In this document: positions 40,687 to 60,379 of the stretch, one piece after another
How the letters are laid out: every line of letters begins with the position of its first letter
How positions within the stretch are numbered: position 1 is the first letter of the stretch
Source: Syntrophotalea acetylenivorans
GTDB taxonomy: Bacteria > Desulfobacterota > Desulfuromonadia > Desulfuromonadales > Syntrophotaleaceae
Assembly (NCBI RefSeq): GCF_001887775.1
Contig: NZ_CP015519.1
Coordinates: 1,302,001 to 1,366,000 of the forward strand
DNA length: 64,000 nucleotides
Direction: 5' to 3'
Position numbers and translations under genes: made by a program
Notes under the pieces: model-generated
What the model was told of the DNA's origin: nothing
The model's input: only the letters and a program-made list of their open reading frames with translations
The model's database searches: none

Positions 40687-40762
<76 letters not shown>

Positions 40763-40770
40763 AAGAAATC

Positions 40771-40807
40771 AAGGACTTACGGCACTAAGCTGTAAGTCCT
40801 TTTTCTT
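40771..40807 (+). terminator. Terminator of tRNA-Ala
   Basis: AAGGACTTAC / GTAAGTCCTT, a 10-bp perfect stem followed by TTTTTCTTTT. Confidence 0.85.
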
Positions 40808-40927
40808 TTCCCACGCCTCTCTCCCTATCCTCTCCCACACCTTAAAGATTCAGCCCACACGATCATTCCTACCCAAACCTGACGATCAGGGGCCTTTTCG
40901 GGCAATGAAGTTGAATATGAATTTAGA

Positions 40928-41949
40928 GTGCCGGAACCAATCAGGCGGATTCAACTAGCAAGTGAAACGGATTCCTTGCTGAAGAATACCTCGTTCGGGG
41001 TTCGATAACCAAGGCACTTTCTTGGTCGATTATTCAGCCGCTCCATCGCAAACTGAATCTCTTCGTCAGTGACCGCTCTCAAGTCACAGTCCTTGGGAAA
41101 ATACTGGCGAATCAGGCCGTTCATGTCTTCGTTGCTCCCGCGCTCCCATGATGCATAGGTGCGGGCAAAGTAAAAATCGGCTATTAGGGCCTCAGCAATA
41201 TCTTTATGTTGAGCAAACTTCTTGCCGTTGTCCGAGGTCAGCCTATGAACCCGATCGACATGGGGACTGAGTAATCGAATGATCGTTGTTGCCACCTGGG
41301 AAGCGGTTTTCTGTTCCGCTTTGGCAATGAGGGCCAGACGAGCTTTGCGGTCCGTCAGAGAAACAATGGCCTGTTTGTACCCCTTGCCGATAACCATATC
41401 GAGTTCCCAATCGCCCAGACGAGAACGGTCACCTACAATGACAGGCCGGGTCTTGATGCATCGCCGATCAGGTAGCTGGCCGCGACGATCTCTGGCGCCA
41501 TAACGCTTATTGCGTTGCTTTTGACAACGAAACTGCTTGTACAGATCGCCTCCATTACTCTTATCCGCCAGAACGTATTGGTAGATTCGTTCATGGTTCA
41601 CCGATGGGCGATCGGTTCTGCGCAACCAGCCAGAAATCTGTTCGGGGCTCCAGTCGAACCGAAGATGACTTTCGATCAAGGACTAGGCTTCAACCGTGAT
41701 TCGCTTGCGAGACTTTTCACAGTGTCGTTTCTGGGCCCGTTGATGGCCTGCTTGGGGCAGTAGCCCCGTTGCCCGCGGTTGCGCTTGAGTTCACGGCTAA
41801 TTGTTGCCTTGTGTACTCTGAGCACTTCGGTAATTTTGGATTGCGTATATCCTGCTTTCTTGAGAGCGTAAATCTGGCATCCTTGATCTTGTGCAAGCTG
41901 CGAGTAGCGTCTCATCTGTGCTCCTTTGACCGGCCAGTCTAGGTGGCAC
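40928..41949 (-). mobile_element. IS30-family insertion sequence (about 1.02 kb)
   Basis: The ends are inferred from short matching termini: GTGCC at 40928 and GGCAC ending at 41949. Behind them lie an imperfect GGCGG/GGCCGG and TCAA match. The bases flanking both ends read AGA (40925-40927 and 41950-41952), which fits a short target-site duplication. The size fits IS30-family elements, and the transposase fills almost the whole element. Confidence 0.65.
40951..41915 (-). pseudogene. IS30-family transposase with a frameshift
   Basis: Two minus-strand frames make up one transposase of about 320 residues. The first (41915 to 41676) holds the N-terminal helix-turn-helix (YTQSKITEVLRVHKATISRELKRNRG) and stops after SRLKPSP. 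The second (41679 to 40951) resumes at LIESHLRFDWSPEQISGWL. The break lies near 41676-41690, with the second frame's TTG overlapping the stop (TTGA). The DDE catalytic core is intact (DWELDMVIGKG, TSDNGKKFA, RGSNEDMNGLIRQYFPK). A good ribosome site (AAAGGAG) precedes the first frame. No classic slippery sequence is seen, so this is most likely a disabled copy. Confidence 0.85.
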
Positions 41950-44062: not shown

Positions 44063-44554
44063 TTGTCGAAATCGGAAAAACTTCATCTCCAATGTGATAC
44101 CCGGATAGTGACTGGCCTTTTAAACAGCCTCCTACCCCACCGCTACCCACATCCCGCGCGAACATTTATCCTTTCCTTATTGTCGAAACTTCCGGGCGTA
44201 GAATTCAGCCGCCGGGGGCTTGGCTTTGTCCCCCAGCGTCGGGACAATCCCAGCTTTCCCGCCCATGTACGGGCCGCGCAGGAGGCTCTGGATCTGGTTC
44301 GCGAGGCAATCGGGGCCAGCCATTATGATCTGCTGGTCATGGATGAGATCTGCGGCGCCATTGCTGCCGGCCTGGTAGATGAACAGGAGGTGGTAGCCCT
44401 GCTGGAACAGGCCCCGGAAGCTATGCGCATCGTACTGACCGGAAGAGATGTCCCTTTCGGGCTAATAACCCTGGCCGACACAGTGACGGAAATGCGTTGC
44501 ATCAAGCACTGCCTGTAACAGGGCCGTATGGCCCAGAAAGGGGTTGAATTCTGA
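44063..44554 (+). pseudogene. Degenerate cobO (cob(I)alamin adenosyltransferase) copy
   Basis: From about 44189 the translation closely follows the intact CobO at 57.8 kb (LPGVEFSRRGLGFVPQRR, LVMDEICGAIAAGL, LADTVTEMRCIKH). The first third, including the P-loop GDGKGKTT, is missing and replaced by unrelated sequence. A TAA at 44516-44518 stands where the intact gene has an Arg codon, with QGRMAQKGVEF continuing in frame to TGA 44552-44554. With no nucleotide-binding site it cannot be a working adenosyltransferase. It is probably the remnant of a duplicated or displaced gene. Confidence 0.8.
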
Positions 44555-44562: not shown

Positions 44563-46623
44563 TCAGGTGTGGGATGCGTTCTGGCCGATGGCACCTGTAA
44601 CGTCGCCGGCAACTCGGTTGCGTCCCTCTTTCTTGGCCCGATACAGTGCTTGCCCGGCGCTGGCGACGAATTCTTCCATTGCCATTGTGCTGTCCGGCCT
44701 CGTACTGGTCACCCCGATGCTGACGGTGACCGTACCCGAAGCGCCTTCGCCGATGTGGGGGATGGCCAGACTCTGCACCTGCCGACGGACCTGTTCAGCC
44801 AGTTCGATGGCCTCGGCCTGATCCGTATCACGCAGGATAATGGCGAACTGCTCGCCGCTGAAACGGGCGATGTGGTGGGCATCCCAGGCCTGGGCGGAAT
44901 CGACCAGGGTCTGGGCGATGTTTTTCAGGATCTGGTCACCGGCCTGGTAGCCGTAGGTGTGGTTGAATTGTTCGAAAAGGTCGATATCCACCAGGAGGAG
45001 GGCCAAACAGGATTCGCTCTTGCCGGCGTGGCGCCAGACCGCGGTCAGTGAAGCGTCGAAGCTGCGGCGGTTGGCGATATTCGTTAGCGGATCGAGCAAG
45101 GCCTGGCGACGCAGATAATGCTGGGCACGTCGGCGATGCTGCACCTCAAGTTCCAGTTTGATGTTGGCCTGCTCCAGCTTATCGGTGCGGTCCGCCACGC
45201 GTCCCTCCAGATCGCTCCGCACGATGCGCAACTGCTCCAGGGCATCGGCCAGTTTGCGAGTGCGGCGATTGAACCAATAGGCGAAGGCGCCGAATTCATC
45301 CGGGCGATTGAAATCGAGGCACAGCATTTCTTCGGCGTTGATATCCACGGCCGATTTCAGCTGCTGAGTGATTCTCGCCAGCGGTTGCATGAGAATGCGG
45401 TTAAAGGTCAGAAAGGCACCGATGACCGCCCCCGAAACCCCTAGGATCAGGGTCAGCAGCAGAGCACGATAGATGGCCGTGGCAGCCGAGATGGCGTGGC
45501 TGATTGGGGTTACAGTGACAATCTTCCAGTAGGTGCTCGGCACATGAAAGATGGCGATGGAGCACGGTTCGCTCAGCAGTAGATCGCCTTTGGTGGTAAA
45601 ATGCTTCAGCAGAATGTCTTCGTCTTGGCCGTCGGGCCAAGGGTCCTGCAGCACGGCGGCGATCTGTTCCGCCTCAATGGCAGATACCTGATCGCTGTCC
45701 TGCGCCATGCGTTCGGCTATGGTTCGGTCATATTGTTCTGATTGTCTAGCCCTGTCCAGTAGAGATGTGGAGGCCTCCTGCAGAGCCGCAGCAATAGGCT
45801 GAAAAACCGGATTACTTTCGGCCAGCTCCGCGGCCTGAATGTATTCGATGTGCTGGTGGCCTAACTTGTCCCGGTAGCGGTTCTGGGTGAGTGGTACCTC
45901 CGGAAAGGAGAGAAAGGTGCCGTTGCGGTCCACCGCAAAGGCATAACCACCCATTTTGGTGGCTTCGCCTTCAAAGAAGGCCTCCATCCCTTCCAGCTTG
46001 AGGTCGACAGTCACCACTCCGACAAAGCGATCCTTGCGGTAAATGGGCACGGTACAGGTGACCATCGGTACGTAGGTGTGCGGGTCCATGTAGGATCTGG
46101 ACCAGAAGACCTTGTTTGGCGGCAGGAAACGGCCGGGTACGTACCATTCCTCGTGATGGTAGCCGACCCCGCGCGGATCGTTATAATCCGCAATAAACTC
46201 GAGGGTACCGGAAGCATTGCGGCCCCAGAAGAAGCTGCGCCGTTCCAGGCGCTGAGCGAAGGCGTAGGGTTCGTACCATACCCCGCCACCTATGATATAG
46301 GAAGATGGTCCCAGTTGCTCCATGAGGCGGGGGATGAACCGCATGTGATCCTCGACCTTCAGGGGAAGATCGGCTGACGTGGTGGCCATGGCCCGCGCCA
46401 GGGTTTCGGCGACCGCGATCCGTTCGCCGAGTTGCGCCACCATGGTGTTGCCGATCTGGTTGACCAGGCCAAAGGACTGTTCCTCCATGCGCGGCCGGCC
46501 GATCCGCTCCATGATGAGGGTCAGACTGATGACCAGAACGGCCAGCAGAAAGACAAACACCAGAGGAGTGCGAAACAGGAGGCTGTGATACCAACGCACA
46601 GAAAAAGATTTTATGTCGCTCAT
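44563..46623 (-). CDS. Membrane Cache-HAMP-GGDEF protein with degenerate GGDEF
   Basis: A 686-residue inner-membrane protein. ATG 46623 is chosen because GAGG lies 6 bases upstream; an in-frame ATG at 46686 has no ribosome site. The first helix spans about 18-38. A large periplasmic double-Cache-like sensor (about 40-375) includes the typical WYVPGRFLPPNKVFWSRSYMDPHTYVPMVT. The second helix is at about 385-410, then HAMP, a coiled coil and a GGDEF domain (about 525-680). The active-site motif reads SGEQF (589-593), with the catalytic Glu replaced by Gln, and no RxxD inhibitory site is seen. Cyclase activity is doubtful, so it may be a c-di-GMP or GTP sensor or a partner protein. Confidence 0.87.
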   Translation of the reverse strand: MSDIKSFSVRWYHSLLFRTPLVFVFLLAVLVISLTLIMERIGRPRMEEQSFGLVNQIGNTMVAQLGERIAVAETLARAMATTSADLPLKVEDHMRFIPRLMEQLGPSSYIIGGGVWYEPYAFAQRLERRSFFWGRNASGTLEFIADYNDPRGVGYHHEEWYVPGRFLPPNKVFWSRSYMDPHTYVPMVTCTVPIYRKDRFVGVVTVDLKLEGMEAFFEGEATKMGGYAFAVDRNGTFLSFPEVPLTQNRYRDKLGHQHIEYIQAAELAESNPVFQPIAAALQEASTSLLDRARQSEQYDRTIAERMAQDSDQVSAIEAEQIAAVLQDPWPDGQDEDILLKHFTTKGDLLLSEPCSIAIFHVPSTYWKIVTVTPISHAISAATAIYRALLLTLILGVSGAVIGAFLTFNRILMQPLARITQQLKSAVDINAEEMLCLDFNRPDEFGAFAYWFNRRTRKLADALEQLRIVRSDLEGRVADRTDKLEQANIKLELEVQHRRRAQHYLRRQALLDPLTNIANRRSFDASLTAVWRHAGKSESCLALLLVDIDLFEQFNHTYGYQAGDQILKNIAQTLVDSAQAWDAHHIARFSGEQFAIILRDTDQAEAIELAEQVRRQVQSLAIPHIGEGASGTVTVSIGVTSTRPDSTMAMEEFVASAGQALYRAKKEGRNRVAGDVTGAIGQNASHT

Positions 46624-46886
46624 TCCGGACCTCGAAAGCCTGTTGGGAGGCGGCAATGCCTCCCTTTTCCCTGGCGAGGATAGCATAAGCGTTTATCCTG
46701 CGACCACTTTTTTCCGGCCGTATACGATTCTGGCTGTGCGGAGCAAAAACAGCGGATGGCGAAGGACAAGTTTCCATATTAAGCAAAGTATAACTGGACA
46801 GCCAATCGGCAGCTCCTATACCATTACAGAACCTCAGCAGCGGCGGAGGGTGCCGATTTTCCGCTCATTTCCGCCATTTTTCCACC

Positions 46887-46991: not shown

Positions 46992-48647
46992 ATGATCAAT
47001 CTACTTGAACTCATCGACCAGTCCACCCTGGACAAGATCATGACTGCCTATACCAAGGCCACCGGCCTGGGCGGCGGCATCTACGATCCAAAGGGCAACA
47101 TCCTTGCCGGGCCCTACAATTTTTCCGACTTTTGTCTTAACTTCTGTCGCGGCAGTTCCAAAGGACGAAAAAAGTGTATGGCCAGTGCCCGGTTCGGTGC
47201 CCACGAAGCCATGCGTCCGGATGCCAATGCCATTTACGCCTGCCTCAACGCCGGGCTGGTGGAGTGCGCCGCGCCCATTATCGTCGAAGGTCAGTTGATC
47301 GCGGTCATCATTTGTGGCCAGGTACGGACTGAAGACTACGAAATCGACCGGGATCTGGCCGTACACCACGCCATGGACATCGGTATCCGGGATATTTCCG
47401 GATACCTGGAGGCATTGTACCGCATTCCCAGGATCGGCTACGGGCAACTAAAGGACTATGCCACCTTACTGAAGATCATCGCTCATACCACCGGCACTCT
47501 GGCAACCAACAACAGGCGCCTGAAAAACCTTTCGCGCAAACGGTTATTCCAACTCTACAACAGCGTTTCCGACTACATCATAGCGACTGACGTCGACGGC
47601 AACATCGAGATGCAGAACAAGGCCCTGCTTACCGCCTTGGGACAGCCCGACGCTGATCTTACCGGGAAGTCTCTACCCTCGCTGTTTCTCGATGACTCCA
47701 GCATCGTACAGGAGTTGGACAAGCTACGTCGCGACCGGGAAGTTCACGACCGGCTGAGCGTAGGCCTGCTGCTGTCGGACAAGAAGTTGGCCCAGGTCGA
47801 TGCCTCGCTTTCCCGCATAGAAAATGAGCAGGGCGAACTGCAGGGCTATGTGGCGGTTATGCGCGATATGTCCGAAGAGAAAAACATGGAAAAAATGAAA
47901 AACGACCTCTTCGGCATGCTCACCCACGACATGATCAATCCCATTCTGGCGGTGAAATCGGCCATCAAGCTGCTGCTCGACGGCCAGGTGGGCGACCTGA
48001 CCTCGGACCAGCAGGATATCCTGCAAATGGCGGCCAGCACCAACCATGACCTGCTGGGTATGGTCTCGGACTTTCTGGATGTCTATCGACAAAGTTACGG
48101 CATGCTGACGCTGCGCCGCTCCCGGTTCGATATTCACCTGGCGCTGCAGGAAGTCATCAACCAGTCCTACTATTTCTGTCAGGACCGAAAACTCAACATC
48201 GTCTATCGATCGGATGTACAGGAGGAACAGATATTTTTTGGTGACCGCCTCCGCCTGATGCGTGTGTTCGCCAACCTGCTGGACAACGCTATCAAGTTCA
48301 GCCCTGAAGAAGGATCGATCATCATTGAAACCAAACAGTTGATGGCGACCGACGAAAGAGCCGTTGTTTTCCCTCCACTGCAGGAGGGGGTTTCTTACAT
48401 CGAAATGTCCTTTCACAATTGCGGTGACCGTCCGCCTCGGGAGGAACTAGACCTGCTGTTCGACAGGTTTTTTACCAGCAGCCACAAAAAACCCGGCGAA
48501 AAAAAGGGGCTGGGACTGGGCCTGCATTTTTGTAAACTAGTGGTCGAGAACCACGGGGGACACATCTTGGCGGAAACAACAGAGGATGGGCTTCGCATCA
48601 GTCTGGCACTGCCCGTGACGGACGAAAATAGCCAGCGCGGACACTAA
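46992..48647 (+). CDS. PocR-domain sensor histidine kinase
   Basis: A 551-residue soluble kinase without membrane helices. Residues about 5-170 are a PocR sensory domain with the cysteine-rich FCLNFCRGSSKGRKKC and ECAAPIIVEGQLIAVIICGQV. PocR in Salmonella senses propanediol and controls cob/pdu genes. A PAS domain lies at about 180-300. The HisKA phospho-acceptor His312 is in LTHDMINPI. The ATPase domain has LLDNAIKFSP and GLGLGLHFCK. The cognate regulator is encoded 26 bases downstream and a cobalamin operon follows, so a role in adjusting B12-dependent metabolism is plausible but unproven. The ribosome site is weak (CCGGAA). Confidence 0.88.
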   Translation: MINLLELIDQSTLDKIMTAYTKATGLGGGIYDPKGNILAGPYNFSDFCLNFCRGSSKGRKKCMASARFGAHEAMRPDANAIYACLNAGLVECAAPIIVEGQLIAVIICGQVRTEDYEIDRDLAVHHAMDIGIRDISGYLEALYRIPRIGYGQLKDYATLLKIIAHTTGTLATNNRRLKNLSRKRLFQLYNSVSDYIIATDVDGNIEMQNKALLTALGQPDADLTGKSLPSLFLDDSSIVQELDKLRRDREVHDRLSVGLLLSDKKLAQVDASLSRIENEQGELQGYVAVMRDMSEEKNMEKMKNDLFGMLTHDMINPILAVKSAIKLLLDGQVGDLTSDQQDILQMAASTNHDLLGMVSDFLDVYRQSYGMLTLRRSRFDIHLALQEVINQSYYFCQDRKLNIVYRSDVQEEQIFFGDRLRLMRVFANLLDNAIKFSPEEGSIIIETKQLMATDERAVVFPPLQEGVSYIEMSFHNCGDRPPREELDLLFDRFFTSSHKKPGEKKGLGLGLHFCKLVVENHGGHILAETTEDGLRISLALPVTDENSQRGH

Positions 48648-48673
48648 ACCACCGTGATAAGAGAGGGGGATTC

Positions 48674-49321
48674 ATGCAGCACGACAAACCGTTTAAAGTC
48701 TTTCTAGCCGACGATCATCCCCTGTTGCGCACTGGGTTGCGCATGAGTCTCAGCCAGCATGCCGACATCGACTTTATCGGCGAAGCCAACGACGGCTTCA
48801 AAGCCGTGGAAAAGATCAAAACAAACCCACCGGATGTCGCCCTGATCGATGTCGACATGCCGGGCCTTTCAGGGATGGCCGCCATCCGCCTCCTGCGCAA
48901 GCAATACCCCGACATGAAACTGCTCATCTTCTCCTCCTACAGTGACCGGCATTACATCGAAGAAGCCATGCAGGCTGGCGCCAACGGCTATATCCTCAAG
49001 AGCATAGACATCAGCGAACTGGTCGAGGTCATCCGCGCTTTTGCCCGCAATGAGCAACCCATGTCGCCCTACCTCATGGACCTGGCCATCGAATGGGAGA
49101 ATACTTCCGCTAGTGAAAACGCGGATAAATTGGTCACCAAACGGGAAAAACAGATTCTCGAATGCCTTGCCCGCGGGCAAGGCAACAAAGAAATCAGCGA
49201 TTCCCTCTACATCAGCACCGAAACAGTCAAAACGCACATCAAGAACATCTTCAAAAAGCTGGAGGCAAAAAGCCGCCTGGAAGCGGTCATCGCCGCCAAG
49301 GAAAAACACATCATAGACTGA
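48674..49321 (+). CDS. NarL/LuxR-family response regulator
   Basis: A 215-residue regulator. The receiver domain has phospho-acceptor Asp59 (VALIDVDMPG) and the conserved Lys near residue 107 (GYILKSI). The LuxR-type helix-turn-helix occupies about 150-212 (TKREKQILECLARGQGNKEISDSLYISTETVKTHIKNIF). It pairs with the PocR-domain kinase just upstream. Targets may be the neighbouring cob operon or distant B12-dependent genes. Confidence 0.92.
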   Translation: MQHDKPFKVFLADDHPLLRTGLRMSLSQHADIDFIGEANDGFKAVEKIKTNPPDVALIDVDMPGLSGMAAIRLLRKQYPDMKLLIFSSYSDRHYIEEAMQAGANGYILKSIDISELVEVIRAFARNEQPMSPYLMDLAIEWENTSASENADKLVTKREKQILECLARGQGNKEISDSLYISTETVKTHIKNIFKKLEAKSRLEAVIAAKEKHIID

Positions 49322-49534
49322 GTCGTGGACAAGACGCTCCATGCCTGGAGCGGAACATAATTCGTGGCCACATGCTTTCGGCCGGCTGTTGCGCAATGGA
49401 GAAATACCTCCGATGAGGGATTGTTTTCGGTTGAAGCCTCTGTTAGAAATATAAACAGGTTGAGAGATCGAAAACTGAAAGCTTCGCAACAATTTTATTG
49501 TTACGCTCTCAGGTTCCAACTCTTTACTTCACAA

Positions 49535-49705
49535 TTTGATCCAGGACAGGTGTTTAACCAACCTAACAGGGAAGACGGTGTAAATCCGTCGCGGTCCCGC
49601 CGCTGTAACCGGTGACGATAGCCACACGATGCCACTTTTTTTTCATAAAAGGGAAGGCGTGGCTGGTAGGATGATCCGGAAGCCAGAAGACCTGCCTGTC
49701 CTATG
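49535..49705 (+). promoter_or_regulatory. Cobalamin (adenosylcobalamin) riboswitch
   Basis: The classical core is visible: AACAGGGAAGACGGTGTAA at 49565, then ATCCGTCGCGGTCCCGCCGCTGTAACCGGTGACG, and the B12-box segment GCCACT at 49631. The basal stem AGGACAGGT (49543-49551) pairs with ACCTGCCTGTCCT (49690-49702). It controls the cob operon and should repress it when B12 is plentiful. The preceding 49322-49534 stretch contains a GCTCCA/TGGAGC hairpin at 49336 and a AACAAT-TTT-ATTGTT dyad at 49488, which may be promoter elements. Confidence 0.93.
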
Positions 49706-49788
49706 TACGTGCTGTCGCGGCCTTCGAGGATAAAGGTCAGGCAATCCCTACACGTGTACATATCGATAGCTGGCGGATAAAAAACGAT

Positions 49789-49824
49789 ATCCCCGGAGCT
49801 TTTGGCTCCGGGGATTTTTCTTTT
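49789..49824 (+). terminator. Expression-platform terminator of the B12 riboswitch
   Basis: ATCCCCGGAGC / GCTCCGGGGAT (11-bp perfect stem, TTTTG loop), then TTTTTCTTTT, 15 bases before the first cob gene. This indicates transcription-termination control. Confidence 0.88.
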
Positions 49825-49838
49825 CAGGGGAGGTATCC

Positions 49839-51038
49839 ATGCACCTGCCGATTCATCTATCCATCCGGGGGCGGCTTTGTCTGCTGGTCGGCAACGGTCT
49901 CCTCGTTCAATCACTTACTCCCCGGCTGAGCAACCAGGGTGCGCAACTGCGATGCGTAGACTTACGGCAGCAACCCTACCGACAGAAAGATCTTGAAAAC
50001 GTCTTTTTAGTCATTGCCGATGCCGACGATCCTGCCATCAATAGCCAGGTCACCAGGGAGGCCCGCGATGCCGGCATTCTCGTGATGCGCGGCGACCTGC
50101 CCACTGATGGAGACTTCACCCTTCCCGGCTTGCAATCCGCCGCCACGGCATTTTCGGAACCCGCTACCCTCTCCCCGGCCAAATCCCCTCAGGGAGATTC
50201 CCCCCCGGGAAAAGTATCCTTGATCGGGGCCGGACCGGGTGATCCGGGCCTGCTCACCGTCAAGGGAGCGGCCTGCTTGCAAGCTGCCGATGTGGTGTTG
50301 TTCGACGCCATTGCTAATCCTTTACTGGTGACGCGATACGCCCCGAACGCCGAAAAGATCGATGTCGGCAAACGCAAGGGCAACTACAAATACAGTCAGG
50401 AAGACATTACCAGGCTGATGCTCGACCTGGCCCGCCAGGGCCGCAAGGTCGCCCGCCTCAAAGGAGGCGATCCGACAATTTTCGGCCGTGGCGGTGAAGA
50501 GGCCCGTGCCTTGTTCGCCGCCGGCATTCCCTTCGAAATCGTACCCGGCGTCAGTTGCGTGGCCGCAGCCCCGGCCTACGCCGGAATCCCCATCACTGAC
50601 CGCGAATACGGTTCATCCTTCGGGGTTTACACCATCCACAAAAAAAACGGCGCCGGCCTGAGCGGTGAACAGTGGCAGCGCATGGCCGGAGGGCCCGATA
50701 CCCTGATCCTGCTTATGGGCAAGAGCATGCTCGCCACGGTGGCCGAAAAACTGGTATGCCAGGGTCGGCCGGCCACCACCCCGGTGGCCCTTATCACCGA
50801 TGGTACCACCTGCCGACAAAAATGTTTTATCGGCACCTTGGCCAGTATCGTTGAAAAAGTGGAACAGGAGGCGGACGGCAACGAAGGGCCCGGCATAATC
50901 GTGATCGGCGAAGTGGTCTCGGCCGTTCCTAAAATGCAGTGGTTCCATCCCAATTTACAGGAAGAATTGGCCGGTGCCACGGAACAGGAAAGCGCTTTTG
51001 CCCTACTGAGCAGGCTGATGGAAGGGATCGCGGCATGA
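49839..51038 (+). CDS. Uroporphyrinogen-III C-methyltransferase (SUMT) with degenerate siroheme-synthase N-domain
   Basis: A 399-residue protein. Residues about 125-370 form a complete SAM-dependent uroporphyrinogen-III methyltransferase (GAGPGDPGLLTVKG, LKGGDPTIFGRGGEEA, GVSCVAAAPAYAGIPITDR), making precorrin-2. The first 110 residues resemble the Rossmann part of CysG/Met8 precorrin-2 dehydrogenase, but the expected nucleotide-binding glycine motif reads LLVGNGLLVQSL and the rest is shortened. Oxidation and chelation by this domain are therefore doubtful. GGGGAGG precedes the ATG. First gene after the B12 riboswitch. Confidence 0.9.
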   Translation: MHLPIHLSIRGRLCLLVGNGLLVQSLTPRLSNQGAQLRCVDLRQQPYRQKDLENVFLVIADADDPAINSQVTREARDAGILVMRGDLPTDGDFTLPGLQSAATAFSEPATLSPAKSPQGDSPPGKVSLIGAGPGDPGLLTVKGAACLQAADVVLFDAIANPLLVTRYAPNAEKIDVGKRKGNYKYSQEDITRLMLDLARQGRKVARLKGGDPTIFGRGGEEARALFAAGIPFEIVPGVSCVAAAPAYAGIPITDREYGSSFGVYTIHKKNGAGLSGEQWQRMAGGPDTLILLMGKSMLATVAEKLVCQGRPATTPVALITDGTTCRQKCFIGTLASIVEKVEQEADGNEGPGIIVIGEVVSAVPKMQWFHPNLQEELAGATEQESAFALLSRLMEGIAA

Positions 51039-51658
51039 GCGGCGCACAGGTCTTTCTAATCCGTCACGGCGATACGGGCGACGCGCTGAAGGGCCGATTC
51101 GTCGGCCGGAACGATGTCCCCCTGGGTCCCATCGGCCGGCGACAGGCTGCCGCCCTGGCAGGCCGTCCGGACTTAAAGAGCTGTCGGGAAGCCTTCTGCA
51201 GCCCCATGCTGCGGGTACGACAAACCCTCGCACATTCGGAGCTCGACCTGGCCTGTCAACAGGACGCAAATCTGCGGGAGATCGACTTTGGACGTTGGGA
51301 GGGGCTTTCCTTTGCGGAAATATCCCGAGATTATCCCGCCGAAGTCGACAGCTGGGCAGGTCTGGAGAGCGATTTTCGTTTCCCCGGAGGGGAAGCCTAC
51401 GCCGATTTCTTGCACCGCATCCAAAAAGCAGCTGAGCGTATCGCCCGGACTGCCGCGTCGCAGACTTCGCCGGTTGCAATTTTCACCCACGGCGGCGTCA
51501 TACGCGCCCTGATCTGCCATTGGCTCGGCCTGCCGGCCAAACATTACCTGTTGTTCGAAATTGAACCGGCTTCCGTTTCGGCGGTGCGCCTGTTCGGCGA
51601 CCAAGGGGTACTTACAGGCCTTAATGATCTGAGCCATCTCAGGGAGGATCGGTCATGA
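51035..51658 (+). CDS. cobC: Alpha-ribazole phosphatase (histidine phosphatase family)
   Basis: A 207-residue phosphoglycerate-mutase-like enzyme with the RHG motif (FLIRHGDT), a catalytic Glu region (LREIDFGRWEG) and the second His in FTHGGVIRAL. In this operon it should dephosphorylate alpha-ribazole phosphate or adenosylcobalamin phosphate. ATG 51035 overlaps the previous stop (ATGA). A longer open frame to 50939 is inside the SUMT gene. Confidence 0.9.
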   Translation: MSGAQVFLIRHGDTGDALKGRFVGRNDVPLGPIGRRQAAALAGRPDLKSCREAFCSPMLRVRQTLAHSELDLACQQDANLREIDFGRWEGLSFAEISRDYPAEVDSWAGLESDFRFPGGEAYADFLHRIQKAAERIARTAASQTSPVAIFTHGGVIRALICHWLGLPAKHYLLFEIEPASVSAVRLFGDQGVLTGLNDLSHLREDRS

Positions 51659-52206
51659 GTCGCCTGATCCTGATCACCGGCGGTGCCCGCAGCGGCAAGA
51701 GCGCCTTTGCCCAACAATTGGCCGAAAGTTTACCCGGTCCCCACACCTATGTAGCGACCTCTCCGGTGACCGACCCCGAGATGGCCGAACGGGTCCGCAA
51801 GCACCGACTGGCGCGCGAAAATCACGATTGGCAAACGCTAGAAGAGCCGCTCGACCTGGCCGGCACCCTGGCTCGAACAGAGGATTGTCCGACCGTACTG
51901 GTCGACTGCCTGACCCTCTGGATTAACAACCTCATGTATCGGGCCACAAACAACCGTCAGCCCCTTACCGAAGAGGACGTTGAAGAGCATTGCCGGGCCG
52001 TTATCGGCGCCGCGCATCAGCATCCGGGCACCGTCATCTTCGTCACCGGCGAAGTCGGCCTGGGTATTGTCCCGGAAAATCGCGAAGCCCGTTTATTCCG
52101 TGATCTTCTCGGGCGCTGCAATCAGAGTCTGGCCGCCGCTGCCCGACAGGTCACCCTGGTGGCCTGCGGCCTGCCGTTGCATCTTAAACAGGAGAACACA
52201 CCATGA
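51655..52206 (+). CDS. cobU: Adenosylcobinamide kinase / GTP:adenosylcobinamide-phosphate guanylyltransferase
   Basis: A 183-residue bifunctional nucleotide-loop assembly enzyme. The P-loop ITGGARSGKSAFA, the HRLARE segment and VDCLTLWINNL are family signatures. It phosphorylates the aminopropanol arm and transfers GMP. It overlaps cobC by four bases. Confidence 0.95.
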   Translation: MSRLILITGGARSGKSAFAQQLAESLPGPHTYVATSPVTDPEMAERVRKHRLARENHDWQTLEEPLDLAGTLARTEDCPTVLVDCLTLWINNLMYRATNNRQPLTEEDVEEHCRAVIGAAHQHPGTVIFVTGEVGLGIVPENREARLFRDLLGRCNQSLAAAARQVTLVACGLPLHLKQENTP

Positions 52207-53273
52207 GCTTGCTCAACGACACCATCGCCGGTATTCGTTACCAGGATCAGGACACCCGCCGCAGGGCCAAGGACCGCCTCGATCGCCTTACCATGCCCCA
52301 TTGGGCCCTCGGCCGGCTGCTCGACCTGGCCCTGGACCTGGCAGGCATGACCGGCTCCCTGCAGCCGGTGGTGGAGCGTCGGCTGATTATCACCATGGCC
52401 GGGGACCACGGCGTGGCGGACGAAGGAGTAAGCGCCTTCCCTCGGGAAGTTACCGGACAGATGGTGGCCAACATTGCCGCCGGCGGCGCCGGCATCAACG
52501 CTCTGGCGCGAGTCGCAGGGGCGCGGGTACAGGTGGTGGACATGGGCGCGGCCTGTGATCTCTCGTCCCTTGCCGAAAGCGGCCGCATCCTCTCCCGACG
52601 CATCGCCCCCGGCACGGCGAATATGGCTGTCGGAGCAGCCATGAGCCGAGAGCAGGCAGTGCGCAGTATCGAGGCTGGCATCGAACTCGCTCAAACCTTT
52701 GCCGCCGATACCGACCTCTTCGGCACCGGAGAAATGGGGATCGCCAACACAACGCCGAGCAGCGCCATCGTCGCAGTATTGACCGGCGCCACCGTGGAGC
52801 AAGCCACCGGTTGCGGCACCGGCATCGATGTTGAGCGCCGCAAACACAAGGTCGCCGTCATCGAACGAGCGCTACAGGTCAACCGCCCCGACCCCGACGA
52901 CGGTCTCGACATACTGGCCAAGGTCGGCGGTTTTGAGATCGGCGGATTAGCCGGAATGATCCTCGGCGCAGCAGCACAGAAAAAAGCGATCATCATCGAC
53001 GGCTTCATCAGCACCGCCGCCGCTCTGATAGCGCAATCCCTGGCCCCGGCCTCGACGGATTACATGATCGCCGCCCACCACAGCATCGAGCAGGGACATT
53101 GTCTGGCTCTGGAGCGACTCGGCAAAAAACCGCTTTTGGACCTCGACTTCCGTCTCGGCGAAGGAACCGGGGCAGCCCTGGCCATGAATCTGGTGGAAGG
53201 CGCCCAGCGTATCCTCACCGAAATGGCGACCTTCGAAGAAGCCGCCGTCAGCCAGGGAAACGTCAACCAATGA
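52203..53273 (+). CDS. cobT: Nicotinate-nucleotide:dimethylbenzimidazole phosphoribosyltransferase
   Basis: A 356-residue enzyme activating the lower-ligand base to alpha-ribazole phosphate. MAGDHGVADEGVSAFPREVT, GEMGIANTTPSSAIVAVLTG and the catalytic Glu region LGEGTGAALAM are intact. Four-base overlaps on both sides. The actual base attached in this organism cannot be deduced here. Confidence 0.96.
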   Translation: MSLLNDTIAGIRYQDQDTRRRAKDRLDRLTMPHWALGRLLDLALDLAGMTGSLQPVVERRLIITMAGDHGVADEGVSAFPREVTGQMVANIAAGGAGINALARVAGARVQVVDMGAACDLSSLAESGRILSRRIAPGTANMAVGAAMSREQAVRSIEAGIELAQTFAADTDLFGTGEMGIANTTPSSAIVAVLTGATVEQATGCGTGIDVERRKHKVAVIERALQVNRPDPDDGLDILAKVGGFEIGGLAGMILGAAAQKKAIIIDGFISTAAALIAQSLAPASTDYMIAAHHSIEQGHCLALERLGKKPLLDLDFRLGEGTGAALAMNLVEGAQRILTEMATFEEAAVSQGNVNQ

Positions 53274-54001
53274 AGAGCCTGTTCGCCGCCCTCAGCTTTC
53301 TCACCGTCGTACCGCTGCCGGCCCCTTGGCACGGGACCGAACGCGAGCTGAGCCGAAGTCCGGTCTGGTTCCCCCTCGTCGGGGCCTTGATCGGTGGAGC
53401 AGTCGCTCTGTTCGATTTCGGTCTGGGACTTTTTCTGCCGACAACCGTGGTCAGCACTTTTAGCGTCCTGGCGATGCTGGTGGCATCCGGGGGGTTGCAC
53501 ATGGACGGACTGGCCGACACGGCCGACGGCTTTTTCAGCTCTCGCAGCCGCGATCGCATGCTGGAAATCATGCGCGACAGCCGCAGCGGTCCCATGGGTG
53601 TTATGGCCATCTGCTCCCTTTTGCTACTGAAAATCGTAACCCTGGCCGCGGTGCCGGAGCCCCTGCGCATCTCCACACTGATCCTTATGCCTTTAGCTGG
53701 GCGCACCGCTTTGACGGTAAGCCTCACAACGCTCCCCTATGCACGGACCACCGGCGGCCTGGCCGGGGTCTTCCGCACCGACGGCATTCAGGCACTGCTG
53801 GCGGCGGCTGTCCTGTTGGCCTCGGGCTGGCTTCTGCAGAGCTATACGGGATTAGTGGCGGCAATGGCATGTCTGGCGGTTATCCAGTTGATGGCCGGAT
53901 ACAGCAAAAAAAAGATCGGCGGCTTTACCGGCGACACCCTGGGCGCAACCTGCGAACTGACAGAACTGGTCCCGGCCCTGATCGCGGTGGCAATGGGGTG
54001 A
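53270..54001 (+). CDS. cobS: Adenosylcobinamide-GDP ribazoletransferase (cobalamin synthase)
   Basis: A 243-residue integral membrane enzyme with several helices joining adenosylcobinamide-GDP and alpha-ribazole. The metal motif [22 protein letters not shown] is clear, with DSRSGPMGV and the C-terminal [15 protein letters not shown] 53270 overlaps the cobT stop; the longer frame to 53099 lies within cobT. Confidence 0.95.
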
Positions 54002-54095
54002 TGCGCTTCATTTCTCACTTTTAAGCGCCAGGCCTCCTGTAATGAATGCTGAGAATCTCGGGCAAGCGAAACAACCGAAAAAGGATAAACAAACC

Positions 54096-56690
54096 ATGAC
54101 TGAATCCGGTACATGGCGTCACGGAGGGCATCTACAACAACTGGCCATGGCGGCCGGGGTGAGCCCCGGGGAATTGCTCGATTTTTCGGCCAACATCAAT
54201 CCTCTAGGTCCCCCCGAATGGCTGCGTTCTTGTATCAGTGGCAGCATCAGCTCCCTTGTGCACTACCCGGATCCCGAGGGTCGAGCTCTGGTCGATGCCG
54301 CCTGCCAACGCTACGGCGTTACTGCCGATGAAGTCCTTCTCGGCAACGGCTCCACCGAACTTTTTTATCTGCTCCCCTCCGCCCTCGGAGTGCACCATGC
54401 ATTGATTCCGATACCGAGCTACGTCGATTATGCCACCACGGCCAAGATCGCCGGACTGACGGTGCATCCCCTGACCCTTGCCGACGACGACGGTTTTGCT
54501 CTCGATTTCGACCGCTTGGAGTCCGCCCTGATGACCATTGACGCTGGGCCGGTGATGATATTTATGGGGCAACCCAACAACCCCACCGGCACCAGTTTCG
54601 ACGCCGGGCGGTTGCGGCATCTGGCCCGCCGCTTCCCGGCGGCCACTTTTGTCGTTGACGAGGCCTTCGGTGATTTTGTAGAGGGTTTCGACAGTCTCAC
54701 CGTCAATCGTCCCGCCAATGTGGTCGTCATGCTGTCCCTGACTAAAATTTTTGCCATCCCCGGCCTACGGCTCGGTCTCGCCGTTGCCTCCCCTTCCACG
54801 GTGCAGAAGGTCAAGGCCCTGCAACCGCCCTGGTCGGTCAACACCATTGCCCAGAAGGTCGGCGAGGCGGCCCTGCGCGACACCGAATATATTCAAGCAT
54901 CCCGCAGTGCCGTAGCCTCCATGCGCAAAGCCCTGCGTCTGCAGCTCGACCGGATTCCCAACCTGACCGTCTATCCGGGCGAGGCAAATTTCCTGCTGAT
55001 CCGCTGCGATCACCGATCGATGAATGCCCGTGTCCTGGCCACCCGCCTGCTTAAACGGGGGTTGGCCATCCGTGTCTGCGACAATTTCCAAGGGCTCGAT
55101 GAGCGCTTTTTTCGGGTAGCGGTTCGCACAGAACAGGAAAATGAGCAACTGGTGGAAGCGCTGCGCCAGGAGCTTTTCATGGCGCCACTGATCGTGACCC
55201 GGCGTCATACCCCGGCCCTCATGTTCCAGGGCACCAGTTCCAACGCCGGTAAAAGCGTGCTGGCTGCGGCCCTGTGCCGCATCATGCTGCAAGACGGCTA
55301 CCGGGTGGCCCCCTTCAAAGCCCAGAACATGTCTCTTAATTCCTTCGTTACCCGCGACGGCGGCGAGATGGGGCGCGCCCAGGTAGTGCAGGCCCAGGCC
55401 GCCCGCATCGATCCGGACGTGCGTATGAATCCGATCCTGCTCAAACCGAGCAGCGATACGGGCAGTCAGGTGGTTTTGTGCGGCAAACCGGTCGGCAACA
55501 TGCGAGTCATGGATTATTTCCGTTACAAAGCCGAGGCCTTCGAGCGGGTCAAGGAGTGCTACGATTCCCTGGCGGGGGAATACGACGCCTTGGTACTGGA
55601 AGGCGCCGGTAGCCCCGCCGAAGTCAATCTCAAGGCCCACGACATCGTCAACATGAAAATGGCCCTGTATGCCAATGCGCCGGTGCTGATGGTCGGCGAC
55701 ATTGACCGCGGCGGTGTTTTCGCCTCCTTCGTCGGTTCCATGGAGGTCCTGTCCGAGCGCGAACGCGACCAGGTAGCTGGATTTGTCGTCAACCGCTTTC
55801 GCGGCCAGGCCGATCTACTCAAGGGTGCCCTCGACTACACCCTGCAGCACACGGGGAGCCCCGTCCTCGGTGTCGTCCCCTACCTGAAAGATCTGGGACT
55901 TCCCGAGGAAGATTCCGTCGGATTCAAGAACGGACTGTTCGATGATGCACGGTCCGCTGAGAATGCCGTCGATATCGCGGTACTCGACCTGCCGCATATT
56001 TCCAATTTCACCGACGTCGAACCGCTGCGCATCGAACCCGATGTGCGCCTGCGAACGGTGCGCCGCATTCAGGATCTGGGGCGGCCGGATGCCATCATCC
56101 TGCCGGGGAGCAAGAACGTCATCGGCGATCTGACCTTTTTGCGCGCCGTCGGCCTCGACCGTGCTCTGGAAAAGTTGGCCATCGAAGGCGGTTGTGAAAT
56201 CGTCGGTATCTGCGGCGGCTATCAAATACTCGGTCGCTCCATCAGCGATCCCCACGGCATCGAATCGCCGGGTACCGACCTTGTGGGACTCGACCTGCTG
56301 CCTATCGAGACGATCCTCGAACCGGACAAAACCCTCACGCGCACCGAAGCCCGGCACCGTATTTCGGGCCTGAAGGTCCATGGCTATGAAATCCATCACG
56401 GCCAGAGCCTTACCGGGGAGATAGCGCCGGCTTTGATCGGTACCGACGGTCAAGGGATGGGCGCCTGCCTCGGTGACGGCTTGGTGTGGGGCAGTTACCT
56501 GCATGGCCTGTTCGATGCCGACGACTACCGCCGCTGGTTTATCGACCGCTTGCGAGAGCGCAAGGGGCTGCAGCCCCTCGACACGGTACAGACCTGTTAC
56601 GATCTGGAACCGGCCTTCGAACGACTGGCCGATGCGGTACGGCAGAGTCTGGACATCCCGGCCATCTATCGCCTTATGGGACTGAAATGA
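54096..56690 (+). CDS. Fused threonine-phosphate decarboxylase / cobyric acid synthase (CobD-CobQ)
   Basis: An 864-residue fusion. Residues 1-360 are a PLP aminotransferase-fold CobD (WRHGGHL at the start, [14 protein letters not shown] with PLP Lys217), which makes (R)-1-aminopropan-2-ol phosphate. Residues about 370-864 are a CobQ/CbiP glutamine amidotransferase ([21 protein letters not shown] with the nucleophile Cys near 705, GSYLHGLFD), which amidates four carboxylates of adenosylcobyrinate diamide. ATG 54096 has AAAGGA upstream; an earlier ATG at 54042 would add 18 non-conserved residues. The two domains are normally separate genes, so the fusion is notable. Confidence 0.92.
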
Positions 56691-57646
56691 CCCTCGAACT
56701 GCAGATACTGGCCGCCATCGGCCTCGACATGCTGTGGGGAGACCCCCGGCGAATGCCACACCCGGTGAAGGGCATAGGACGCCTGGCCATGGCCCTGGAA
56801 GGCCCGATGCGAAAGTGGTTCGCCGATCCACGCCTGGCCGGTCTCGTCACAGTCATTATCGTCATCTCCGCGACGGCGGCTGCGACGGCCTTGTTGCTGA
56901 TCGCGGCCTCTCGCCTGCACCCGTGGGCCGGAGACGCCCTGAGCATCCTGCTGTTGTCGACCTGCCTGGCAGGCCGCGATCTGGCCGCCCATGCAAGGCA
57001 GGTCTTTAAGGCCCTCCAGCAGAACAACCTGGAACTGGCCCGCGAACGCGTCGCCTGGATGGTCGGCCGCGATACAGCATCCATGAACCGGGCCGATATC
57101 GTGCGGGCCGGGGTAGAAAGCGTAGCCGAAAACACGGTGGACGGCGTCACCGCGCCCCTCTTCTGGGCGGTGCTCCTCGGTCCCGTCGGTGCCCTGGTCT
57201 ACAAGGCCGCCAGCACCCTCGATTCGACCTTTGGCTATAAAAACGAGCGTTACCTGCACTTTGGCTGGGCCTCGGCGCGACTGGACGACGTCCTCAACTA
57301 CCTGCCGGCGCGCCTGACCCTGCCACTGACTGTGGTAGCCGCCGCCCTGCTCGGCCTACACCCCGCAAACAGCTGGAGCATCGCCCTGCGGGATCGGCGC
57401 AAACATGCCAGTCCCAACTCCGGCTGGAGCGAAGCGGCAACCGCCGGGGCTCTCGGGATCCAACTGGGCGGGCCGGTCTACCGGCAGGGGAAGCTCAGCG
57501 ACATGCCCCTCTTCGGCGATGGCGGAGAGCCCCTGGCGCCAACGCATATCGAACAGGCGGTGCGGCTAATGCTGCTCACTTCGCTGCTGGCGGCAGTGGC
57601 GTTTTTGGGGATGCGGGTTGGATGGGGCTGGTTGATATGGGGATAA
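56687..57646 (+). CDS. cbiB: Adenosylcobinamide-phosphate synthase
   Basis: A 319-residue membrane protein of about five helices that attaches aminopropanol phosphate to cobyric acid. [38 protein letters not shown] and [16 protein letters not shown] are diagnostic. It overlaps the fused gene by ATGA. Downstream the operon is interrupted by an inverted-repeat element. Confidence 0.94.
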
Positions 57647-57656
57647 GCAAAACCAG

Positions 57657-57764
57657 TCTCACGCTCGTTCGCTTCGCTCACTAAAGCCGCAAAGAAAGAC
57701 AATTCAAAAAAGGTTTTCTTTGCGACTTTGCGGCTTGAGCGACTGAAAAGGAGCGGGCGTGAGA
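57657..57764. repeat. Imperfect long inverted repeat between cbiB and cobO
   Basis: Matching arms in order: TCTCACGC (57657-57664) with GCGTGAGA (57757-57764), and AAGCCGCAAAG (57684-57694) with CTTTGCGGCTT (57726-57736), with partial pairing between. The sequence is non-coding and unlike the flanking genes. It resembles dispersed palindromic repeat units, possibly a small non-autonomous element. Similar copies elsewhere in the genome cannot be checked here. Confidence 0.6.
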
Positions 57765-57798
57765 TGATTTTTATTGTTTTTAAAAAAGGACAAACCAA

Positions 57799-58329
57799 AT
57801 GAACGACAAACCACGCATCCTTATCTTCACCGGCGACGGCAAAGGCAAAACCACCGCCGCCATGGGCATGGTACTCAGAGCCAGCAGTCACGGCATGCGG
57901 ATCAAGGTTGTGCAGTTTCTCAAGTCCGATAAAGGCAGCGGCGAGATAGCGGCCCTACAGAACCTGCCCGGAGTGGACTTCGTGCAGCGCGGACTAGGTT
58001 TCGTACCGAAACGCCGCAATGACCCGAAATTGGGCGAGCACCGCCGGATCGCCGGAGAAGGATTGGACTTGGCCCGGGAAGCGATCCTATCGGACAACTA
58101 CGACCTGGTTGTGATGGACGAAATCTGCGGCGCCATTGCCGCCGGGCTGCTGGAAGAAGCCGATGTCAGCGAGCTGCTGACCCGGGCCCCGGCGGGGCTG
58201 AGCCTGGCTCTGACCGGCCGTCATGCCACCGCCAATCTTATTGAACTGGCCGACACCGTCACCGAAATGCACTGCGTCAAGCATGGCCTGCGGCAGGGCA
58301 GAACAGCCCAGAAAGGCGTGGAGTTCTGA
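57799..58329 (+). CDS. cobO: Cob(I)alamin adenosyltransferase (CobO/BtuR type)
   Basis: A 176-residue P-loop enzyme (GDGKGKTT, residues 12-19) that transfers the 5'-deoxyadenosyl group from ATP to the cobalt. Typical segments are VVQFLK, RGLGFVPKRR, VMDEICGAIAAGL and LADTVTEMHCVKHGLRQGRTAQKGVEF at the C-terminus. It is the intact paralogue of the remnant at 44 kb. AAAGGAC precedes the ATG. It starts a new tight gene block with cbiA and cbiC. Confidence 0.96.
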   Translation: MNDKPRILIFTGDGKGKTTAAMGMVLRASSHGMRIKVVQFLKSDKGSGEIAALQNLPGVDFVQRGLGFVPKRRNDPKLGEHRRIAGEGLDLAREAILSDNYDLVVMDEICGAIAAGLLEEADVSELLTRAPAGLSLALTGRHATANLIELADTVTEMHCVKHGLRQGRTAQKGVEF

Positions 58330-58331
58330 GT

Positions 58332-59717
58332 ATGAGTTGTCCGAGACTGGTCATCGCCGGCACTTCCAGCGGCGTCGGCAAAACCTCCCTGACCCTGGGT
58401 CTGACGGCCGCTCTGTGCCGCCGGGGCCTCAAAGTCCAGACCTTCAAGGTCGGTCCCGACTTTCTCGACCCCACCTGGCTGGCCCTTGCCAGCGGCCGTC
58501 CCTGCATCAACCTGGACGGCTGGATGTGCGGCGAGGACTACGTGCGGGACCGGTTTGCCCGCGCCTCTGCCGATGCGGACATCGCCATCGTCGAAGGTGT
58601 TATGGGACTTTTCGACGGCGCCGATCCCGCAGACGCCGTCGGCAGCACCGCCGAAATCGCCCGCTGGCTCGACGCTCCCGTTCTGCTGGTGGTCAACGCC
58701 CACGGCATGGCCCGCAGCCTGGCGGCTTTGGTAAAAGGCTATGCGGAATTTGATCCCGAGCTGCAAATGGGCGGAGTGATCGCCAACCGCTGCGGCTCGG
58801 CGCGCCATGCCTCCTGGCTTTCGGAGGCCCTTGCCGCGGCCGGCATGCCCCCGTTGCTAGGTGCCGTCCGCCGGGATTCCCTGCCGCCTTTGCCCAGCCG
58901 CCATCTTGGCCTGGTAACCGCCGACCGACAGAATCTCTCCGCTTCGGCTTTGGCAAATCTCGCCGATGCCGTCGAACAGCAACTCGATCTGGCCCGCATC
59001 CTCGAACTGAACAAGGGGATACCGTGGGAAACTCCCGTTTCCGTCCCAGACACAGCACCCCTTGCCGGTACTCAGGGGGTGCGCATCGGACTGGCCTTCG
59101 ACGAAGCCTTTCACTTCTACTATCCGGACAACCTGCAGGCGCTGGAAGAAACCGGGGCTACCCTGGTGCGTTTTTCTCCCCTGCGGGACCGCACGCTGCC
59201 CGATGGCCTGGATTCCCTCATCTTCGGCGGCGGTTATCCCGAGGAATATGCCGCCGATCTGGAAGCCAACCGCGACATGCGCCGGTCCGTGGCGGCGTTC
59301 GCCTCTGCAGGAAATCCGGTTTACGCCGAATGCGGCGGACTCATGTATCTATCCGCAGGGATCGAATTACGCGATGGAGTCCACCATAAAATGGTCGGAG
59401 CCCTGCCCTTTGCCACCCGCATGCTGACTACGCGCAAACGCCTTGGCTACACCGAAGTCAAGCTCTTGCAGAAAGGCCCTTTCGGCGATGCAGGCACCTG
59501 TCTACGCGGCCACGAATTCCATTACTCCGAAATCATCGATTCGGCTTCCACCTGCACCGATGGGTCCGCATGGCAGGTCCGCTACCGCCGATCCGGCACC
59601 CCGGTCATGGAAGGTTATCAGCACGGCAACCTGTTCGCCAGTTACATCCACATCCATTTTGCCAGCCGCCCCGGTGCGGCCGAGGCCTTTGTCGACTTTG
59701 CCCGAGGAGACCAATGA
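58332..59717 (+). CDS. cbiA: Cobyrinate a,c-diamide synthase
   Basis: A 461-residue glutamine-dependent amidotransferase. The N-terminal ATPase part has AGTSSGVGKTSLTLG and VEGVMGLFDGADP. The C-terminal glutaminase-like part has FGGGYPEEYA, a Cys in YAECGGLMYL, and GHEFHYSE. It amidates side chains a and c of cobyrinate. It begins 2 bases after cobO. Confidence 0.95.
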   Translation: MSCPRLVIAGTSSGVGKTSLTLGLTAALCRRGLKVQTFKVGPDFLDPTWLALASGRPCINLDGWMCGEDYVRDRFARASADADIAIVEGVMGLFDGADPADAVGSTAEIARWLDAPVLLVVNAHGMARSLAALVKGYAEFDPELQMGGVIANRCGSARHASWLSEALAAAGMPPLLGAVRRDSLPPLPSRHLGLVTADRQNLSASALANLADAVEQQLDLARILELNKGIPWETPVSVPDTAPLAGTQGVRIGLAFDEAFHFYYPDNLQALEETGATLVRFSPLRDRTLPDGLDSLIFGGGYPEEYAADLEANRDMRRSVAAFASAGNPVYAECGGLMYLSAGIELRDGVHHKMVGALPFATRMLTTRKRLGYTEVKLLQKGPFGDAGTCLRGHEFHYSEIIDSASTCTDGSAWQVRYRRSGTPVMEGYQHGNLFASYIHIHFASRPGAAEAFVDFARGDQ

Positions 59718-60379
59718 AACCGTTGATCCACGAATTACTGGCCAATCCATTAAGCGGCGAACAGATCGAAGCGCGTTCCATGGCGACCATCGACCGGGAA
59801 GCGCCGCCTCACCCTTTTACCCCCGAACAATGGCCGGTGGTACGCCGCATGGTACATACCACCGCCGATTTTTCCCTGCTTGAACATGTACGCTTTTCAC
59901 CGGACGCTATCGAGGCTGCCCGCGGCGCCCTGCGGGGGGGCGCTCCGATCTACGCCGATTCCAACATGATCCGCGCCGGCCTCTCCATGGCCCGCTTGCA
60001 GCGGGTCTGCCCGGACTATCGACCGGAATCGATCCTGTGCCATGTGGCCGATGGCGACGTCGCCGCCGAGGCTCGGCAAACTTCGCTGCCCCGTTCCCTG
60101 TTCGCCGTGCGCAAGGCCGCGGATAAATTGCAGGGCGGCATCGCGGTATTCGGCAACGCTCCCGTCGCCCTGCTGGAACTCAACCGCCTGATTCAGGAAA
60201 CCGGGCTGCGCCCGGCTCTGGTGATCGGCATGCCCGTCGGCTTCGTCCACGTGGTGGAGAGCAAACAGGAACTGATGGGCATGGGCGTACCCTACATCAC
60301 CCTCGAGGGACGGCGAGGCGGCTCACCGCTGGCGGTCAGCGTAATCCATGCACTGTGCGGACTTGCTGTGACGGAGTAA
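59714..60379 (+). CDS. cbiC: Cobalt-precorrin-8 methylmutase
   Basis: A 221-residue enzyme moving the methyl group from C-11 to C-12 to give cobyrinate. The catalytic His is in VRRMVHTTADF. GGAPIYADSNMIRAG and GMPVGFVHVVESK are family signatures. ATG 59714 overlaps the cbiA stop (ATGA). The remaining cbi ring-contraction and methylation genes are not in the window and may follow to the right. Confidence 0.95.
   Translation: MKPLIHELLANPLSGEQIEARSMATIDREAPPHPFTPEQWPVVRRMVHTTADFSLLEHVRFSPDAIEAARGALRGGAPIYADSNMIRAGLSMARLQRVCPDYRPESILCHVADGDVAAEARQTSLPRSLFAVRKAADKLQGGIAVFGNAPVALLELNRLIQETGLRPALVIGMPVGFVHVVESKQELMGMGVPYITLEGRRGGSPLAVSVIHALCGLAVTE

Follow-up and report, generated by a model that had tools for sequence, protein, structure and literature searches.

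The locus lies on the forward strand of the single-contig, 3.2-Mb genome of Syntrophotalea acetylenivorans (G000), within a 64-kb stretch of DNA (the window) that was analysed as a whole. It consists of a kinase gene, a response regulator gene, a cobalamin riboswitch, and a block of cob genes. The kinase (46992–48647; 551 aa) has an N-terminal PocR sensory domain (residues 6–167; 47007–47492) recognized by Pfam, followed by a PAS domain of the Pfam PAS_4 family (residues 190–297; 47559–47882), and a kinase core (47895–48620) of HisKA (residues 302–367) and HATPase_c (residues 417–543) domains. The regulator gene starts 26 nt further on in the same direction (48674–49321) and encodes a 215-aa protein of the NarL/FixJ type, with a REC domain at residues 9–121 (Response_reg) and a LuxR-type helix-turn-helix at residues 155–207 (GerE), of which the segment STETVKTHIKNIFKKL is identical in six of eight orthologous regulators. 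A sequence-only reading of this DNA had proposed a PocR histidine kinase and a NarL-type regulator at this position, and the open reading frames agree exactly with its coordinates, while the Pfam domains bear out the two assignments. The proteins score below the cut-offs of the NCBIfam equivalogs with which they were compared, the regulator with 161.3, 158.8, and 156.2 bits for MctR, MadR, and NarL (cut-offs 300, 300, and 250) and the kinase with 74.4 bits for the PocR equivalog NF047788 (cut-off 500). A PDC/Cache-type sensor with a GGDEF domain (44563–46686, reverse strand; Pfam) is the divergent neighbour of the kinase.

The PocR assignment is strong (PF10114; E value 1.1e-42; 146 bits, where the cut-off is 23.9), and the domain was modelled with a pLDDT of 94.3. 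Searching the PDB by sequence yielded three chance-level matches (E values 0.037 to 0.63) and no PocR domain, and a Foldseek search of the PDB with the model gave no match at E ≤0.001. Of the Foldseek candidates, IclR effector domains align best with the model (E. coli IclR, with Z 11.7 and an rmsd of 2.7 for 124 residues), with GAF domains next; a modelled fold of this IclR-effector/GAF-like kind fits a small-ligand sensor, although the fold does not name the ligand. A 19-residue hydropathy scan combined with the PocR model reveals no evident transmembrane segment, and the highest peak (2.0, from residue 89) falls in beta-strands of the confident model, so that the kinase is predicted to be cytoplasmic, as had been supposed. 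The cysteine cluster to which attention had been drawn is also real, but is mostly a trait of the PocR family and not of this kinase, because C48, C62, and C84 are invariant in all 46 PocR domains aligned from the source genome and its relatives; C52 of the FCLNFC motif is a cysteine in 18 of the 46.

Behind the regulator gene lies a cobalamin riboswitch aptamer (RF00174; 49531–49713, forward strand), which scores 123.9 bits with the covariance model versus a gathering threshold of 31.5. A terminator search located a terminator-like hairpin with a T-tract at 49789–49815 on the same strand, which is likely to be the expression platform of the riboswitch. The cob gene block that follows (49839–60379, forward strand), the probable target, starts with a TP_methylase/NAD-binding fusion at 49839 and includes a His_Phos_1 phosphatase, CobU, a CobT-type DBI_PRT protein, and an aminotransferase-CobQ/CbiP fusion at 54042, all named by a Pfam scan of these genes. 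The gene at 53270 we take from its own sequence to be CobS-like, and that at 57799 was assigned as BtuR by similarity. The riboswitch and the same fused first cob gene occur together in five of the 14 genomes searched for them (G000, G006, G008, G011, and G012), several of the others being incomplete.

The cob genes look closer to those of a sister genus than to those of a congener. The aminotransferase-CobQ fusion is 82–83% identical to its counterparts in the sister-genus genomes G006, G008, and G011 and 77% to that of G010, versus 61% for the congener G004; the full-length BtuR at 57799 is likewise 81–82% identical to sister-genus proteins versus 72% for G004. A decayed copy of BtuR at 44063–44551 (forward strand), which is without its first third and has a stop close to the end, shows the reverse relationship (82% identity to G004, 62–68% to the sister genus), and G004 has an intact BtuR in the same place. 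Moreover, the DNA is homologous to G004 for approximately 80 nt past the regulator gene and is then replaced by a leader resembling those of sister-genus cob operons. Given these identities and the switch of homology, the simplest reading would be that a cob block of sister-genus ancestry has been joined just behind a native kinase-regulator pair. A tRNA-Ala beside a transposase-like integrase-core ORF, named by its look, is present at 40687–41679 and may mark an edge of a rearranged segment.

We compared 58 genomes from the species' own, its genus, its family, and its order, re-reading the loci with a hexamer-scored gene caller because the first caller had missed the regulator gene in several of them; antisense ORFs at L036:11519-12817 and L047:4851-7511 had no family match and were dropped. 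A close kinase orthologue (at least 64% identity) is present in eight genomes (G000, G003, G004, G006, G010, G011, G012, and G013), with the next-best matches at about 39% identity or less, and in all eight it is adjoined by a regulator at least 77% identical. The G003 kinase (L053:1-1670) reads as two overlapping pieces, reflecting a frameshift or an assembly error. Riboswitch positions were sought in 12 genomes, and G000 is the only one of the eight in which the pair stands beside a cobalamin riboswitch; in G003, an assembly 67% complete, no cobalamin riboswitch was found anywhere. The adjacency on which the sequence-only reading had leaned is therefore present in the source genome, but carries little weight as an argument.

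A better clue comes from G003 and G004, in which the pair is immediately followed on the same strand by a EutBC operon, with genes for a porin, for a substrate-binding protein, and for a fused, B12-dependent EutBC (ethanolamine ammonia-lyase), of clade I in G003 and of clade II in G004. The same arrangement probably holds in G001, where a contig (C415) opens with what seem to be the final codons of the regulator gene and runs on into the same EutBC operon; orthologues of the kinase and regulator themselves were not found in the G001 assembly. In G004 an aminotransferase-CobQ fusion and BtuR are located upstream of the pair, past the GGDEF gene, which is kept beside the pair there (87–88%), and in G000 a clade II EutBC operon comes after the cob block. 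The sister genus differs, with pabB directly after the pair in five of five genomes that have it, and pabC beyond pabB in the four whose sequence extends that far. This is an unrelated pathway, and the sister-genus location gives no functional hint. The expectation that relatives would carry the pair near ethanolamine or cobalamin genes is thus borne out by EutBC in G003 and G004, but not in the sister genus. No diol or glycerol dehydratase adjoins the pair in any of the eight genomes, the neighbours being cob, EutBC, or pabB, and the diol dehydratase large subunit (PF02286) has no match in 14 genomes, a result that does not establish absence because the control genomes gave no match either.

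G000 has two EutBC copies, at C1:1374544-1376811 and 2527672-2529942 (L069 and L072). By eye, the N-terminus resembles a Sec-type signal peptide – a charged start, a hydrophobic core, and AGA or similar – in all 18 copies of both clades in which it is seen, and this resemblance suggests that EutBC is a periplasmic B12-dependent ammonia-lyase. Encoded beside it are a porin, a binding protein that resembles a lipoprotein, and an ABC transporter; the ATPase of this transporter has its best match in the corrinoid family, below the cut-off of that family. Genes for a MoxR ATPase, a DUF58 protein, and VWA-domain proteins come after the corrinoid-type transporter in EutBC operons (G000:C1:1380729-1387500; L070). 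There are two further PocR kinase-regulator pairs in G000, at C1 ~1396264–1398646 and 1409904–1412184 (L046 and L047), both with weak palindromes of the related kind next to them. One has genes for an aldehyde dehydrogenase, a CoA-transferase, and a YaaH-type transporter beside it, and the other those for a glycyl-radical enzyme and its activase; the glycyl-radical enzyme in L047 was named by similarity to that in L052. The neighbours of the paralogous PocR pairs are glycyl-radical dehydratases and an aldehyde dehydrogenase/CoA-transferase set.

One type of EutBC operon is recurrently preceded by two tandem palindromes. Eight sites from such promoters, with no cob site among them, served to train a 20-base matrix, whose best match in the window is at 49403–49422 on the forward strand (AATACCTCCGATGAGGGATT), between the regulator gene and the riboswitch; we regard this match as a candidate operator. 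With 14.9 bits it ranks first among approximately 128,000 scored positions of the 64 kb, the second-best locus reaching 12.6 bits, and its score was reached in four of 3000 dinucleotide shuffles of the 209-nt spacer between regulator gene and riboswitch. With a matrix built from G001, G003, and G004 only, the two strands of this site take ranks 1 and 2, and it again ranks first with a matrix from kinase-upstream and sister-genus cob sites; a matrix from a single sister-genus EutBC sequence places it only 24th. The other best site in G000 is in a EutBC operon promoter 20.6 kb beyond the cob site. Elsewhere in the whole genome, a pattern fitted to these two sites is matched nowhere with one mismatch and twice with two mismatches, and the tandem EutBC site of G000 is among its three-mismatch matches. 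A degenerate form of the motif was searched for in 14 whole genomes, and none of its five exact matches is more than about 4.5 kb from the pair; this shows specificity rather than independent discovery, the pattern having been drawn partly from these same sites. Two other candidates were set aside: a match to a draft of the motif at position 6859 of the window, which is inside a gene and was taken as chance, and TTGTAAA-N9-TTTACAA palindromes near 46893 in the kinase leader, which had been entertained as autoregulatory sites and were dropped because they differ from the motif and are only partly kept in G004.

Motif scores of at least 10 bits were found in the cob leaders of five of five genomes, versus seven of 202 control regions, a control count that is if anything too high since it includes the G010 aminotransferase-CobQ leader and a region on the G011 contig that bears the pair. 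Identical intergenic sequences were counted once, control regions shorter than 150 nt were left out, and L036 and L037, being the same contigs as G004:C393 and G003:C324, were dropped. The genomes are nonetheless close relatives, so that the motif counts cannot be treated as independent, and the sites used for training have a common ancestry with those used for testing. Regions upstream of PocR kinases reach 10 bits in five of 13 cases, or six of 14 after two corrections: the G010 start had been called too early (its score rises from 6.7 to 20.7 bits when the start is put right), and the paralogous kinase of L047, first left out as just below the 33% identity threshold, was added (2.6 bits). 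No operator precedes the kinase gene in G000 (0.5 bits) or G004 (0.3 bits), nor this paralogous kinase of L047. Regions upstream of glycyl-radical enzymes score at least 10 bits in three of five cases, and the weak related sites near paralogous PocR pairs range from 10.6 to 12.9 bits. No enrichment is seen downstream of regulators once EutBC and cob leaders are set aside (one of six regions), and the EutBC promoters of the other type lack the motif, with eight of eight regions at 5.3 bits or less.

The predicted operator stands at a fixed distance from a predicted promoter. The -10 box of the cob promoter, taken as the best-scoring hexamer 8–35 nt after the site, is the extended form TGT-TAGAAA (49441–49449, forward strand), which lies 21 nt past the operator and ties in score with a TATAAA at 27 nt. 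The best -10 is at 21 nt in six of six cob-type leaders and at 21 or 22 nt in nine of nine EutBC leaders, two of the 15 (the cob leaders of G000 and G008) being tied with an equal hexamer at 27–28 nt. If transcription starts about 7 nt past the -10, the operator would be centred at about -43, a usual place for an activator site. No consensus -35/-10 pair was found on the forward strand of 49200–49850.

With a probability that we put at roughly 0.6, the pair is a substrate-responsive PocR two-component activator of the EutBC operon and the cob operon together, acting above the riboswitch. A small substrate or a derivative of it would bind the cytoplasmic PocR domain and set the activity of the kinase, and the signal may be the substrate or the product of the lyase. 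The phosphorylated NarL-type regulator would then bind the palindrome (approximately WWYMCC-N7-RGGGAT) some 43 bp before the predicted start and, as the promoter anatomy suggests, recruit polymerase to promoters in which the -10 is not accompanied by a good -35. The two best sites in G000, at the cob promoter (49403) and at the promoter of the fused EutBC lyase 20.6 kb further on, would thereby switch on cofactor synthesis and the B12-requiring enzyme together, and the riboswitch would shut off cob once B12 is sufficient. The process under control would be a fermentation, dependent on B12, of some small amino alcohol or diol; our best guess for the substrate is ethanolamine or choline. The second, signal-dependent layer of cob control that had been suggested would need just such an operator shared by cob and EutBC; the suggestion gains from the candidate site, and not from the riboswitch adjacency on which it was argued. 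The finding that had been named as weighing against it, location of the pair with unrelated pathways and no regulator site near the cob promoter, is seen in part: pabB is such a pathway in the sister genus, but a predicted site is present near the cob promoter.

The pair could instead have nothing to do with cob, regulating itself, EutBC, or something else, with a cob block of other ancestry having landed beside it and another factor reading the palindrome. The single instance of riboswitch adjacency among eight genomes, the closer kinship of the CobQ fusion to the sister genus than to the congener, and the constant company of pabB in the sister genus all speak for this, as does G008, which keeps its EutBC-II and cob sites in the absence of a pair orthologue (its closest regulator is 37% identical). 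The pair locus of G008 may have been deleted or left unassembled; the pabB beside which the pair stands in the rest of that genus is missing too, but because G003 and G004 likewise lack the sister-genus pabB, this leaves the case unsettled. We nevertheless think this explanation unlikely, though a credible one, since all five exact matches of the motif in 14 genomes are near the pair, the sister-genus cob leaders also have the site at the same spacing to the -10, and a Pfam scan of 20 neighbour proteins turned up no DNA-binding regulator among them. The G008 sites, the sister-genus pabB, and the lack of a site before the G000 kinase mean that the regulator is only the presumed binder of the palindrome.

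A role for the palindromes at the RNA level, as hairpins or terminators that separate transcription units, rather than as protein sites, would suit their near-perfect inverted repeats and the position of the sister-genus palindromes before cob, 12–21 nt past a stop codon. It is very improbable given that no terminator-like site was found on the forward strand from 49322 to 49530, that a -10 is 21–22 nt from the palindrome in 15 of 15 leaders (two tied), and that the palindrome is present in tandem copies before EutBC-II. The same absence of a terminator-like site between regulator gene and riboswitch, and the common strand of kinase, regulator, riboswitch, and cob, would agree with read-through of one transcript with no operator for the pair at that place; a conserved leader with motif and -10 box is present also where the pair is elsewhere, and read-through as the sole link is scarcely probable.

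The proposed activation of EutBC and cob by the pair has counterparts in several known systems. EutVW provides two-component control of ethanolamine use, as would the pair described here, but EutV is an RNA-binding ANTAR antiterminator, whereas the present regulator joins REC to a DNA-binding GerE helix-turn-helix by Pfam. PocR of Salmonella is an AraC-type protein that controls cob as well as pdu. It shares with our system the PocR sensor domain and the matching of B12 synthesis to a catabolic enzyme that needs B12, but has a one-component output in place of a HisKA/HATPase kinase and a NarL-type regulator. Activation of pdu by Salmonella PocR has been described (PMC10433801). PocR two-component systems are known at the 1,3-propanediol operon of Clostridium butyricum and at PDU1D microcompartment loci, where, as here, a PocR kinase and response regulator stand beside an enzyme for a small diol or alcohol (PMC4207490). 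The paralogous pairs by glycyl-radical dehydratases resemble these systems further, and the pair described here departs from them in being tied, through a shared predicted operator, to B12-dependent EutBC and cob. MecA, the PocR kinase of the dichloromethane mec cassette, similarly adjoins catabolic genes, with a different substrate and gene set (PMC9768040). PocR had earlier been predicted to sense growth substrates (cited in PMC1592074).

A parallel in gene content is found in Pelobacter carbinolicus, strains of which grow on ethanolamine and choline. Its cob genes lie between two fused EutBC copies, as in G000, and it has a corrinoid-type transporter; the authors of its genome paper infer that B12 is coordinated with the use of ethanolamine or choline (PMC3543383). 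The main text of that genome paper contains neither 'PocR' nor 'histidine kinase', and its available text, which notes the EutBC fusion, names no regulator for the cluster and does not mention a signal peptide (PMC3543383). A further, speculative extension, which we hold to be quite doubtful, is that the pair rebuilds the Salmonella pdu-cob logic with a different output: the invariant cysteine triad of PocR would read a compound that crosses the inner membrane, possibly the aldehyde product, instead of the external substrate, and operators of a single type, set at a constant distance from the -10, would tie a signal-peptide-bearing, predicted periplasmic EutBC to riboswitch-controlled cob.

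PocR kinases beside diol or alcohol genes are of a kind already known. What appears from sequence to be new is a PocR two-component pair linked to EutBC and cob by a shared, closely spaced predicted operator above a riboswitch, and our literature search found no paper by title on the operator or targets of a PocR kinase in these organisms. The analysis gives such a kinase a testable operator and a list of targets. It also suggests that anaerobes may match costly B12 synthesis to B12-dependent fermentation by controlling one operon twice, with an activator at its promoter that is driven by substrate and a riboswitch in its leader that is driven by product.
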